This document shows, piece after piece, positions 12,910 through 34,551 of a stretch of 39,395 nucleotides of DNA. Position 1 is the stretch's first letter; every line of letters starts with the position of its first letter. The notes beneath the pieces were generated by a model. The model was not told where the DNA came from, ran no database searches, and was given only the letters and a program-made list of their open reading frames with translations. Both the position numbers and the translations under genes were made by a program. The DNA is from Planctomycetota bacterium (lineage in GTDB: Bacteria; Planctomycetota; Planctomycetia; Pirellulales; Lacipirellulaceae): contig JAJRWS010000431.1 in NCBI GenBank assembly GCA_024276705.1, positions 1 through 39,395 of the forward strand, in the 5' to 3' direction.

Positions 12910-14238
12910 TTACTCGGTTCGTTCGATCGCTTCGCTGATCAGTTCCGGCAGGCGGGGCAAGTCACGCATTGCGGTTGCGAGTCGTGGATGTACAAAGAGT
13001 CGCACCCGTTTGACGTAGTCGTCAAACTGTTCCCTGGCAAGTGTCTTGACAACAGGAGAAATATCGCCCAGAGGACGATAATATTGTTCCTTGGAGAAGT
13101 AGATCTCAATTTGGAACTCGACCTCCAACGACGCAGGTGGAGCATCCAGCAATATTTCGTGAGGGGCAACGACCCGCGATAAGGCCGTGCTGGCCAGGGC
13201 GGCAAATTGTTCCGCGCAACGAACCAACCACGAGTAAGGACGCCGGGCCAGTCCGTGGTATAGATTCGGTTCCTGGAACAGGCTGTACTGTACGACTCGT
13301 TTGTAGAGCCTTCGGGTGGGGCCAAACAATCCGCTCAGCAACTCTTCGGCCGGGCTGTCCCGAGCAGCGGCAGTGAGCGAGTCGATCCATGGCGATTCCG
13401 TCATGCGAAACAGTGGATCCAAGTCCAGCATTCCGTGCAGCAGATAAAATGCCCGCTGCAGCATGGCCGTGGCCGATCGGACCGCATGGTGCCAGTAGAC
13501 TTCGCTGAACATGACATAGCGGGCAAACACCATCATCTCCGCAGCCGTCTTGCCTTTGTCAGAAATTGCCAATCCATCGCCCATTTTGTTCAAACAGAGG
13601 CTTTGGATCAATCGATGTCGATCGAAATTCCGGCCATACGGTACGCCCGCATGCAGGCTGTCGCGCATCAAATAATCCATTTTATCCACGTCGATGGGAC
13701 CGGATAGCATGCTGCGAAAGATGCGATCCCGCCGAGCTTGCGGTTTTCCAGAGAGCATTTCCAATACATCACGAGGTGGAATGCCCCAGTCATCGCGTAA
13801 GGTGTCCGCGATTTCTCCTTCCAGTAAGAAGCTATTCGCGAATAGTTCGTGTCCAGGGACTTGCGGCAAGGAGATATCTTCAATGGGATGACAGAAGGGC
13901 CAGTGCCCGAGGTCATGCAGGAGGGCGGAAACGAGAAATCGTTCGATGTCGTCTGGTTCCACGGCCGCGGCAAAACGGGGCTCATCCGCCAGGCGATCTA
14001 CGTACAGCAAGGCGTTGCGGTAGACTCCCAGAGAATGTTCCAGGCGGGTGTGATTGGCGGCCGGATAGACCAGACTTACAAGTCCCAGTTGGCGAATGTG
14101 GGCCAGACGGTGAAATTCGGAGGTGTCGATCAGCTGTCGAACACGCCCCGTGATGGGGACATCGATTTCCGGAGGGATGCGGATCACACCACGGCTGGAC
14201 CGTAAAGCGGCAATTTCGGGAATATCACGCAAGGTCAT
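12910..14238 (-). CDS. HD-domain phosphohydrolase (dNTPase/SAMHD1-like, COG1078 type)
   Basis: 442 residues from the ATG at 14238 (MTLRDIPEI), 5 bases after the stop of the upstream gene. A 25-codon longer frame would overlap that gene and has no family-like sequence. Seen: HD signature spread as TRLEHSLGVYRNA (His about 68), ALLHDLGHWPFCHPIED (His-Asp about 108-109) and GPIDVDKMDYLMRDS (about 180-194), which is the metal-binding H...HD...D set of metal-dependent phosphohydrolases. The DYLxRD pattern is typical of the dNTP triphosphohydrolase-like branch that includes SAMHD1. The natural substrate cannot be read from sequence. It is the last gene of a three-gene leftward operon with the zinc-ribbon membrane protein and the ACT protein. 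Confidence 0.88.
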   Translation of the reverse strand: MTLRDIPEIAALRSSRGVIRIPPEIDVPITGRVRQLIDTSEFHRLAHIRQLGLVSLVYPAANHTRLEHSLGVYRNALLYVDRLADEPRFAAAVEPDDIERFLVSALLHDLGHWPFCHPIEDISLPQVPGHELFANSFLLEGEIADTLRDDWGIPPRDVLEMLSGKPQARRDRIFRSMLSGPIDVDKMDYLMRDSLHAGVPYGRNFDRHRLIQSLCLNKMGDGLAISDKGKTAAEMMVFARYVMFSEVYWHHAVRSATAMLQRAFYLLHGMLDLDPLFRMTESPWIDSLTAAARDSPAEELLSGLFGPTRRLYKRVVQYSLFQEPNLYHGLARRPYSWLVRCAEQFAALASTALSRVVAPHEILLDAPPASLEVEFQIEIYFSKEQYYRPLGDISPVVKTLAREQFDDYVKRVRLFVHPRLATAMRDLPRLPELISEAIERTE

Positions 14239-15552: not shown

Positions 15553-15571
15553 CGTTGGCCAGATACACCTT

Positions 15572-15694
15572 CAGTCGTTCCAAGAATGGCCGATGAAGCC
15601 GACCCGAGCAATGTGCTATCTGCGAAAAACGCCGGTTTCCGGGCGGCTTATCGCCCTGCTTCACGTGGGGTTAAGCGGCAATTTGGAAGTACTG
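15572..15694. repeat. 123-bp interspersed element, copy A
   Basis: About 85% identical over its full 123 bp to copy B (32340-32462), and related to copy C near 32600. It has imperfect 12-bp terminal inverted repeats (CAGTCGTTCCAA against CAGTACTTCCAA). Internally 15591-15605 can pair with 15641-15653 (13 bp, two bulges). No reading frame is conserved. It is in the gap 15442-15891, which also holds the ACT operon promoter on one side and about 200 bases of unassigned sequence before the thioesterase gene on the other. A MITE-like element or structured RNA are the main options. Confidence 0.85.
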
Positions 15695-15891
15695 ACCTTG
15701 TAATATGGTTCGCATGGGATACCCTATCGGACCCCGCGTCCGAGCCGCATGGAATGATCGAGGCCTAGAGGGGGAGGGGCGACCTTTCACGGCAAATGGT
15801 CGCTATTACCCGTGTTTCACGGTTAGGATTCTGTTTCATTAAAACCCGGGAAGTCATTTTTGAGCTGTCCCTAAGTCTTCCGAGCACAACG

Positions 15892-32041: not shown

Positions 32042-32296
32042 CTACACTGCCAGGCTCGACTCAATCTGCTCGGTCAGTTGGATGTTGCAAACTTTGTCGG
32101 CTAGCAGTTCGCGCCCTTTGTCGGTCCATACGCCGATCGAACGCAGTGGGCTTTTGGTCTGGGGGCAGAGAAAGGTTACCTGCTTGGGAGTGACGGCATG
32201 AATCTCGATGGATTCACCACTACGGGTGTAGCCTACCGAGACGGCAACCTGGCGATTGTTCTCTTCGTCCTCCCAATTTGCTTCGATGATCTGCAT
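32042..32296 (-). CDS. Small conserved-looking hypothetical protein
   Basis: 84 residues; family not recognised. Seen: a compact, mixed-charge sequence with no signal or membrane segment, an even codon use, and a GGGAG Shine-Dalgarno 10 bases before the ATG. The VSVGYTRSGESIEIHAV and VTFLCPQTKSPLRSIGVWTD segments suggest a small beta-rich fold with one C-P-x-T motif. The 123-bp repeat copy B lies 44 bases upstream of its start codon. Confidence 0.7.
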   Translation of the reverse strand: MQIIEANWEDEENNRQVAVSVGYTRSGESIEIHAVTPKQVTFLCPQTKSPLRSIGVWTDKGRELLADKVCNIQLTEQIESSLAV

Positions 32297-32339
32297 GTTT
32301 TCGTCACTCCCAATTTAAAAAAGTACCCAAAGTAAAACA

Positions 32340-32462
32340 CAGTAGTTCCAAGAATGTCCGATGAAGCCGACCCGGGCAACGTGCTAGCTGCAAATAACGT
32401 CGGTTTCCGGGCGGCTTATCGCCCTGCTCCACGTAAGGCAACGTGACAATTGGAAAGTACTG
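32340..32462. repeat. 123-bp interspersed element, copy B
   Basis: Same length as copy A (15572-15694) and about 85% identical by eye. Terminal inverted repeats are CAGTAGTTCCAA and CAGTACTTTCCAA. The pairable core is 32359-32373 with 32409-32421. It lies in the 418-base gap 32297-32714 together with copy C. Confidence 0.88.
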
Positions 32463-32599
32463 AAACAGTAAAAGTTGGCTACAGCCTGCTCCAAGAGGGC
32501 TACTGCTGGAGGGCAATAGAAAAGCCCAGCAAAGCTGGGCCTAGCACCGCAGTATAGCAGGTGTATCGGTAAATGGAACCGCCAAAATATTTGAAAAAT

Positions 32600-32718
32600 T
32601 GGTAATTTCAAGAATGGGCGATGAAACCGACCCGGGCAATGTGCTAGTAGCTAAAAGCGTCAGTTTCCGGGCGGCTTATCGTCCTGTCACACGTAGGGCT
32701 GAGTGGCAATCCTGTTAC
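32600..32718. repeat. Interspersed element, copy C (diverged)
   Basis: Shares the core TTTCCGGGCGGCTTATCG and CCGACCCGGGCAA with copies A and B and has the same orientation; the ends have drifted (GGTAA...TTACC). The pairable core is 32619-32633 with 32669-32681. The right end overlaps the stop codon (32715-32717) of the outer-membrane-like gene. Confidence 0.8.
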
Positions 32719-34304
32719 CGCACCCGGTCGACGAACATCCAGCCGTTGTCTGCGATCGGGAAGAGCGGTCGATGAGGATTTCGCTCACAGGTGCGTGCCA
32801 TACGTCCCCAATGCCAGATGATGTTCATGCCCAGGTTCCATGATTCCTGGGTCACATCTTTCTGGTCTGGGCTCAGGTAATTGAATCCGGACTGAAAAGA
32901 CCAACGGTCATTGAGAGGGACTTGGAAGTCAGCACCCAGGACCGCATCACTGTCGTCGGTTCCACCAATCCAGCAGCGGCCGACGCCACCGTGGAAGAAA
33001 TGCCAGCGATAGAAAAGCAAGTACTGGTCGACGGACTGGTAGGTCGCTGTCGCTCCGTTGTCAAAACTCAGCTCTCGGCTGTTGAGGTGAGAAGCTGCCA
33101 GCAGGCCAAATTCACGTCCGCGAGGTGTTTTCAGGCTGATTTCAAAGCGGATTTGCTGCAAGTCCGCCCGGTCTTTTGAGGCGTCTTCGTTAAGTTGGTC
33201 TTGCATGAAATCCCACACCACACCGAACTGCAGCCCGACTGGCACGCGTCGGTACATGCCGATGGTAACAAAACTTTGGGAGCGACTGCTGTCACTCGCG
33301 GTCGTTCCAGACAACCGACTTTGGGTTGCCAGGTAGCCCAACTGATAGCTGATCTGTGGAAACAGCCGGCCAATCAGAGGTAATCGGCTGCCCACGTTAA
33401 TGCCTTCCTGGAAGCCATAATTGGCCGTCCCGCGATTGTTGGTGGTAAAGTCACGTGTATCACGGAACGAATGCACGCCAGCCTGGAATTCGATGACCCT
33501 GAGGCGGGGCAGGCAGATGGGAAAGCACCAGTAATCCGGCTTGGGTGGGCCCACACTGCTACCGCACTCGTCCACGACACCACAGCCAGGTTCCACTATC
33601 CCGCAGCCAGGATCCGCGATCCCACAACCAATCTCTCCAATTCCGCAACCTGGTTCTCCGATCCCACACCCGGCCTCCACCATGCCACAGCCGGGCTCGC
33701 ATGCCCCTGTGCTACCGCAATAGGCACAGGCGTCAGCAAGATCGGAATCGTAGACAACCTGGCCATGGGAGACAGGAGCGACTTGTGCATCACGGTGCAA
33801 TTGCCGACGCTGCTTGAGTTTTCGGGCGACGCGCTCTATGGGAAAAGGATCTTGCCTGCTTGACAGGCTGGGCGCGGGTGTTGCTGGTGAATCGATGTCG
33901 GCCCGCGTGGCTGGCCGGGTTCGCCTGCGGTTGACAGATTTCCTCTCCTTTTGAACCCGACGGTCCTGTTCGGACGCAAGGGGCACCTGCTTCCGAGACG
34001 GCCGATTCCGCAACGAATTCTCTCTGGCGGATCGTTTTGCTGCAGCCGGCCGTGCGGGTTGATTTCGACTCCGCTGGTCTGTTGCTTTGTCCTCGCGGCT
34101 GTCGGCAGCTGCTTGCCGGGTGCCAACCTGACTTGCGGCTCGAAAAGTGAGCTGTTGGTTCGGCACTGCCTGTCGGGGCTTTTGAAAATGGACATGCTGG
34201 GCGCCCGTTTCGTGTGCTAGCACGGCCCGTGGGCCGATGAAGGCACCAGCCATCGTCAGGACAGAAAAAATCGCAATGGATAGTGTTGCCGGGGAGCGTT
34301 TCAT
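32715..34304 (-). CDS. Putative outer-membrane beta-barrel protein with Cys-Gly repeats
   Basis: 529 residues from the ATG at 34304 with AAGGGA about 8 bases upstream. Seen: signal peptide (LSIAIFSVLTMAGAFIGP core, about 8-25). Residues ~30-185 are basic, Arg/Lys/Pro/Gln-rich low complexity. Then a Cys-Gly repeat zone (DNA 33580-33705). From about 260 comes a beta-strand-rich domain with alternating hydrophobic patterns: VGSRLPLIGRLFPQISYQLG, FVTIGMYRRVPVGLQFGVVW, QYLLFYRWHFFHGG and a final NLGMNIIWHW. This resembles planctomycete outer-membrane-like (DUF6666-type) proteins. Function unknown; surface location is inferred. Confidence 0.72.
   Translation of the reverse strand: MKRSPATLSIAIFSVLTMAGAFIGPRAVLAHETGAQHVHFQKPRQAVPNQQLTFRAASQVGTRQAAADSREDKATDQRSRNQPARPAAAKRSARENSLRNRPSRKQVPLASEQDRRVQKERKSVNRRRTRPATRADIDSPATPAPSLSSRQDPFPIERVARKLKQRRQLHRDAQVAPVSHGQVVYDSDLADACAYCGSTGACEPGCGMVEAGCGIGEPGCGIGEIGCGIADPGCGIVEPGCGVVDECGSSVGPPKPDYWCFPICLPRLRVIEFQAGVHSFRDTRDFTTNNRGTANYGFQEGINVGSRLPLIGRLFPQISYQLGYLATQSRLSGTTASDSSRSQSFVTIGMYRRVPVGLQFGVVWDFMQDQLNEDASKDRADLQQIRFEISLKTPRGREFGLLAASHLNSRELSFDNGATATYQSVDQYLLFYRWHFFHGGVGRCWIGGTDDSDAVLGADFQVPLNDRWSFQSGFNYLSPDQKDVTQESWNLGMNIIWHWGRMARTCERNPHRPLFPIADNGWMFVDRVR
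33580..33705 (-). repeat. In-frame 21-bp repeat encoding CGIxEPG heptads
   Basis: Six 21-bp units from 33580 to 33705 encode repeats such as CGIGEPG, CGIADPG and CGIVEPG. The Cys and Gly positions are constant and the two middle positions vary. The units are diverged at DNA level but kept at protein level, so the motif is under selection. Confidence 0.9.
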
Positions 34305-34551
34305 CGATCGATCCCTTGAGGGGCTCCATGCCAGCAGGCACAGCGCGGCCTTCAATGCTTTGGACGCCGATGATTACCGCACCGAGATAGCTATGCAAGC
34401 CATGCTACTCGATTGATCAGGGACGTCTAGGTAACCCCCCCGGGAACCAGCACGTACAGCTTGTATCGTCCCCCTTACAGTCGCAGCTTTCGTAATAATC
34501 GACACAATCGACAAATTTTTTCAACTTCGCCTAAATTGAACGGTATTGCGC

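Follow-up and report, generated by a model that had tools for sequence, protein, structure and literature searches.

A 123-bp unit that recurs in a 39,395-nt stretch of planctomycete DNA (the window, meaning the whole stretch analysed) is very probably a non-autonomous transposon of the MITE type. The family is new and is known from two Pirellulales draft genomes. Its mobility is well shown: terminal inverted repeats (TIRs), 5-bp target duplications, a count of at least 150 copies and a nested insertion from which the empty site can be restored all bear out the MITE-like reading made earlier from the letters of the window alone. The part worth following is its conserved, co-varying bulged hairpin. 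With this element, a well-documented MITE family is added to the planctomycetes.

Copies in the window and in two genomes

The window contains two full copies and one degenerate copy, all on the plus strand, and a scan of the window for further copies found none beyond these three. Copy A (15572–15694) occupies the intergenic region of a divergent gene pair (minus-strand ACT_8 and plus-strand 4HBT thioesterase), a location that fits the earlier statement that this copy is not part of a transcript leader. It runs from the left TIR CAGTCGTTCCAA (15572–15583; consensus CAGTAGTTCCAA) to the right TIR TTGGAAGTACTG (15683–15694), and encloses hairpin arm 1 (GGCCGATGAAGCCGACCCGA, 15588–15607, with bulges G at 15595 and A at 15602), a variable 31-nt loop (15608–15638; 22% minor alleles among copies), hairpin arm 2 (CCGGGCGGCTTATCGCCC, 15639–15656) and a variable right sub-terminal segment (15658–15679) that has a different sequence in a related MAG. 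The target duplication ACCTT on its left (15567–15571) is identical to that on its right (15695–15699). Copy B (32340–32462) is flanked by AAACA on both sides (32335–32339 and 32463–32467) and lies upstream of a small 84-aa ORF (32042–32296, minus strand), 43 bp from its start. Both copies are exactly 123 bp long, and the approximately 105 matching positions counted by eye correspond to 85% identity over 123; as the duplications stand directly outside, the edges first assigned to the two copies were right to the base. Copy C, as had been noted, shares the core; its extent is 32600–32720, its right terminal repeat is gone and it overlaps the final 6 bases of a minus-strand DUF6666 gene (32715–34355).

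The source genome (a draft assembly of 6.36 Mb in 698 contigs, 85% complete) yielded 43 BLAST matches to copy A. A covariance model trained on 29 copies matched all 150 of the candidates scored in this genome (E values of 1e-36 to 1e-15), nearly all of them 120–126 bp long, so that the three copies of the window, which the sequence-only reading had allowed might be the only ones, belong to a family of at least 150 genomic copies. This number is a lower bound; because at least ten further places outside the 150 are matched by a core-only model, the true copy number is above 150. The copies are dispersed and do not form arrays. The sole second genome found to carry the element is an uncultured Pirellulales MAG (CAMYJY), which has at least 33 copies with the same ends and core and another right sub-terminal segment. 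From the two genomes, 146 and 26 full copies, respectively, were extracted for analysis. The full model had no matches in 59 relatives drawn from the family and the order, the core model had none in 38 of these 59, and a search of plasmids, phages and viral contigs found no homologues. Several subfamilies coexist, including one in which GCAG or GCAGT replaces GAAT at positions 13–16 and which has many copies, often 124–125 bp long (for example, on contigs C126, C160, C222 and C669).

The element ends are 12-bp inverted repeats (CAGTAGTTCCAA...TTGGAAGTACTG) with one fixed mismatch at base 6 (G on the left, C on the right), in agreement with the imperfect inverted ends described earlier. Perfect 5-bp target duplications flank 52 of the 146 copies in the source genome, compared with 1.6% of control pairs (approximately 2 expected), and 13 of the 26 copies in the MAG, compared with 3.4% of control pairs; duplications of other lengths were not in excess. 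All perfect duplications begin with A (consensus AAWNT), with symmetrical A/T enrichment at 6–8 bases to the left and right of the target centre. In contig C696, a newer copy lies within an older copy, and excision of the inner element together with one 5-bp repeat restores a match to model positions 2–123 (E value of 2.4e-26). When we searched with the ends only (a TIR pair 99 bases apart, with the interior ignored), we obtained 65 genomic sites, compared with 0 for a reversed control pattern, and the core was present in 50 out of 50 such sites among the matches listed.

The element is mostly intergenic and occurs in both orientations. Gene calls were obtained with a simple codon-usage predictor, and the following counts for the 146 copies are thus approximate. 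Between same-strand genes, 42 copies lie on the strand of these genes and 24 on the opposite strand; divergent gene pairs flank 35 copies and convergent pairs 4, a further 28 overlap predicted ORFs, and 13 are at contig edges. Almost all of the classifiable intergenic copies (101 out of 105) are located upstream of one or more genes. Where a copy shares the strand of the gene before it, it typically follows the stop codon of that gene closely (median, 7.5 bp), and siting just after stop codons fits the A-rich oriented target.

Structure, covariation and decay of the core hairpin

The two-bulged core stem that had been drawn from the window is real. Its arms, at element positions 17–36 and 68–85, form 17 pairs around the 31-nt loop, with single-base bulges at 24 (G) and 31 (A) and a C·C mismatch at 19/83. 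For copy C, the earlier reading had described one changed stem base giving an A·C mismatch on the plus strand; this change is present at 27/76, but it is not the sole one, as 19/83 has become G·T. The segment GAAGCCGAC has two potential pairing partners, the conserved arm 2 and the loop sequence GTCGGTTTC (element positions 24–32 and 60–68; 15595–15603 and 15631–15639 in copy A), so two alternative folds are possible.

Covariation is weak among ordinary copies because the arms are almost invariant. An alignment was made that combines ordinary copies with older relatives of the element in the source DNA (for example, loci L210, L211:262–336, L214:1003–1079, L224 and L005:250–326). Two-sided changes were found in 9 of the 18 pairs of this alignment, compared with 4.6 in shuffles (0 of 500 shuffles reached as high a value), and 90.7% of cells were paired, compared with 33–50% when the arms were slid. 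Pair 20/82 changes from C–G to G–C in seven rows and pair 34/70 from C–G to T–A in seven rows; both pairs lie outside the search pattern, which serves as a check on selection bias, and both have clean two-sided changes. The picture was unchanged in a larger set. The stem thus co-varies between subfamilies, contrary to the lack of covariation that the earlier reading had named among its refuting findings, and the compensatory changes indicate that pairing has been important during the evolution of the element. Some factor would recognize the hairpin as a structure.

Across all copies, minor alleles account for 4–6% in the arms, 10–12% in the ends, 22% in the loop and 27% in the right segment. 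As the core had contributed to the detection of these copies, the count was redone on 115 copies identified by their ends alone; the DNA scanned for this count includes 62 of the 65 end-only 123-bp sites genome-wide, which means that the core played no part in choosing the set. Divergence per site was 1.8% in the inner 18-nt hairpin and 7.2% in the ends (Fisher P = 3e-19), the latter value being an underestimate given that the search limited end mismatches to three, and the difference holds within each base type. The two bulged bases were changed in merely 1 and 3 of the 115 copies. Target duplications in the same set had 19.8% mismatches, or approximately 10% per copy; as duplications are identical at birth, these mismatches arose later. 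A perfect inner 18-nt hairpin is retained by 94 of the 115 copies, compared with approximately 17 expected at 10% decay. Decay of the ends did not rise together with decay of the duplications in this end-selected set, which a single transposition burst or, equally, end variation present at birth would explain. Because so many copies have readable ends, target duplications and hairpins, the family provides an internal clock for the retention of transposon structure after insertion.

Possible roles of the hairpin

On the basis of these rates, we think it probable, as the simplest reading, that the hairpin has been constrained after insertion. The claim would be weakened if the end variants were partly inherited, as some of them look to be, and the absence of a joint rise in end and duplication decay is a second caveat. 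Some end variants are shared, for example CAGTACTTCCCA and CCGTACTTCCAA, each by eight copies. If the constraint is true, a mobile element would have been seeding structured regulatory sites across a genome. Part of the constraint would act after insertion, and a cis-acting site near promoters or leaders is the most likely form for it because 101 of the 105 classifiable intergenic copies are upstream of genes. We consider it rather unlikely, and put it forward tentatively, that the hairpin is a functional site that has spread upstream of approximately 100 genes and is kept by selection while the ends decay; if true, structured control sites, in the form of DNA or RNA, would be scattered across the genome of a planctomycete. 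The same MITE could instead conserve its hairpin solely for transposition, through internal transposase binding or folding, in which case inheritance, inexact duplication or gene conversion would account in part for the extra variation of ends and duplications. The shared end variants favour such an account, singleton alleles are near equal in arms (0.5%) and ends (0.4%), and usefulness of more than 100 copies to the host is hard to imagine; but duplications that decay by approximately 10% per copy beside an inner hairpin at 1.8% in the same copies, and the large excess of perfect inner hairpins over the number expected, count against it, as does, for gene conversion, the 22–27% variation in the loop and right segment. 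We consider an explanation by transposition only to be less likely than not.

It is improbable that the copies are primarily small structured RNA genes or leaders (riboswitch-like or sRNA), with mobility secondary, even though the core is structured and co-varying and the copies, which are located upstream of genes, tend to share the strand of their neighbours (42 same, 24 opposite). The inverted ends and 5-bp duplications indicate that the whole 123 bp moves, copies are found in either orientation and also in promoter regions between divergent genes, and Rfam returned no matches above the gathering threshold (best sub-threshold score, 13.5 bits). The earlier reading had proposed a MITE or a small RNA and had taken a stem change in copy C, which would be a G–U pair in a minus-strand transcript, as a hint of RNA from that strand. 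Among the 146 copies, however, plus-strand stem changes to G·T (53) and to A·C (65) are near equal, so neither strand is marked as RNA and no strand is favoured; the MITE half of the proposal stands, and the small-RNA half has lost the one clue cited for it. A protein-coding core (ATGGCCGATGAAGCC...) was rejected, as variability did not differ among codon phases. REPs and attC sites also use hairpins with bulged bases, and the two conserved single-base bulges on one arm, together with a GTAG near the left end, recall either an attC-like folded site of recombination or an element of the REP/REPIN kind that a Y1 (RAYT) transposase mobilizes. To our knowledge, neither REP/RAYT mobility nor attC recombination makes target duplications, whereas the element here has a 5-bp duplication; inspection of the consensus found no RYYYAAC/GTTRRRY core boxes at the foot of the hairpin, and the dispersed copies form no cassette arrays. 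We regard both of these origins as highly improbable.

Comparable known elements and probable mobilization in trans

As a MITE, the element resembles the bacterial families Correia/NEMIS, RUP, ERIC and QMITE2 in being short, intergenic and present in many copies, with inverted ends and a target duplication, without a transposase gene, and with transcripts or strands capable of forming hairpins (PMC2229807, PMC10969869). Unlike these families, which have TA-type ends, it has CAGTA..TACTG ends and a 5-bp AAWNT target, carries, as a separate internal feature, a bulged hairpin whose conservation exceeds that of the ends, and has so far been found in two Pirellulales genomes only. The CIR elements of Caulobacter and relatives are similar in size (approximately 110 bp), copy number (many) and possession of a conserved structured internal motif (PMC2229807), but their structure is a GANTC-centred one with two arms, in contrast to a single bulged hairpin with a variable loop. 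REPINs and REPs with RAYT transposases are likewise genome-wide, imperfect bulged hairpins that are mostly extragenic (PMC3116915). Unlike them, the present element has a target duplication and terminal inverted repeats. A literature search on Pirellula and miniature inverted repeats found no such family. Tn3-family elements make 5-bp target duplications and have ends of approximately 38 bp that begin with GGGG. The miniature elements derived from Tn3 (TIMEs) are also non-autonomous (PMC4133298), but the ends described here are 12 bp long and begin with CAGTA, which does not fit a Tn3-derived miniature element.

The 5-bp duplication and inverted ends point to a DDE-type transposase acting in trans. 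Such an enzyme would recognize the element ends, cut A/T-rich DNA with a 5-bp stagger and then paste the element. The mark of a transposase-bearing partner would be the end sequence in inverted orientation, CAGTASTTCCAA. A search for three transposase families in the 85%-complete draft found none with element ends: the matches in the source genome (five DDE_Tnp_1, two rve and one full-length IS1380-type) are not flanked by them. The mobilizing enzyme may have been lost, may be encoded in the missing 15% or may come from a family outside those searched. The source genome appears to be poor in IS transposases of the searched families despite its complement of over 150 copies of the MITE. As candidates for an autonomous partner, loci at which the ends are unpaired were inspected and rejected, as they are actually element fragments, elements split by insertions or chance matches.

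Other insertions were observed within copies of the element. A second, unrelated palindromic mini-element, which has the ends GGATCGTTCGAGAAATAACTG / CAGTTATTTCTCGAACGATCC and seems to duplicate TTA, is inserted in 123-bp copies at two sites (contig C195, approximately 13835–14060, locus L107; and contig C542, approximately 13250–13471, locus L122). A further copy (contig C124, 14436–14821, locus L031) is split by an insert of approximately 260 bp whose ends resemble TCGATAAATAACTATCC / GCTATTTATCG and whose interior contains GTACGA repeated in tandem.
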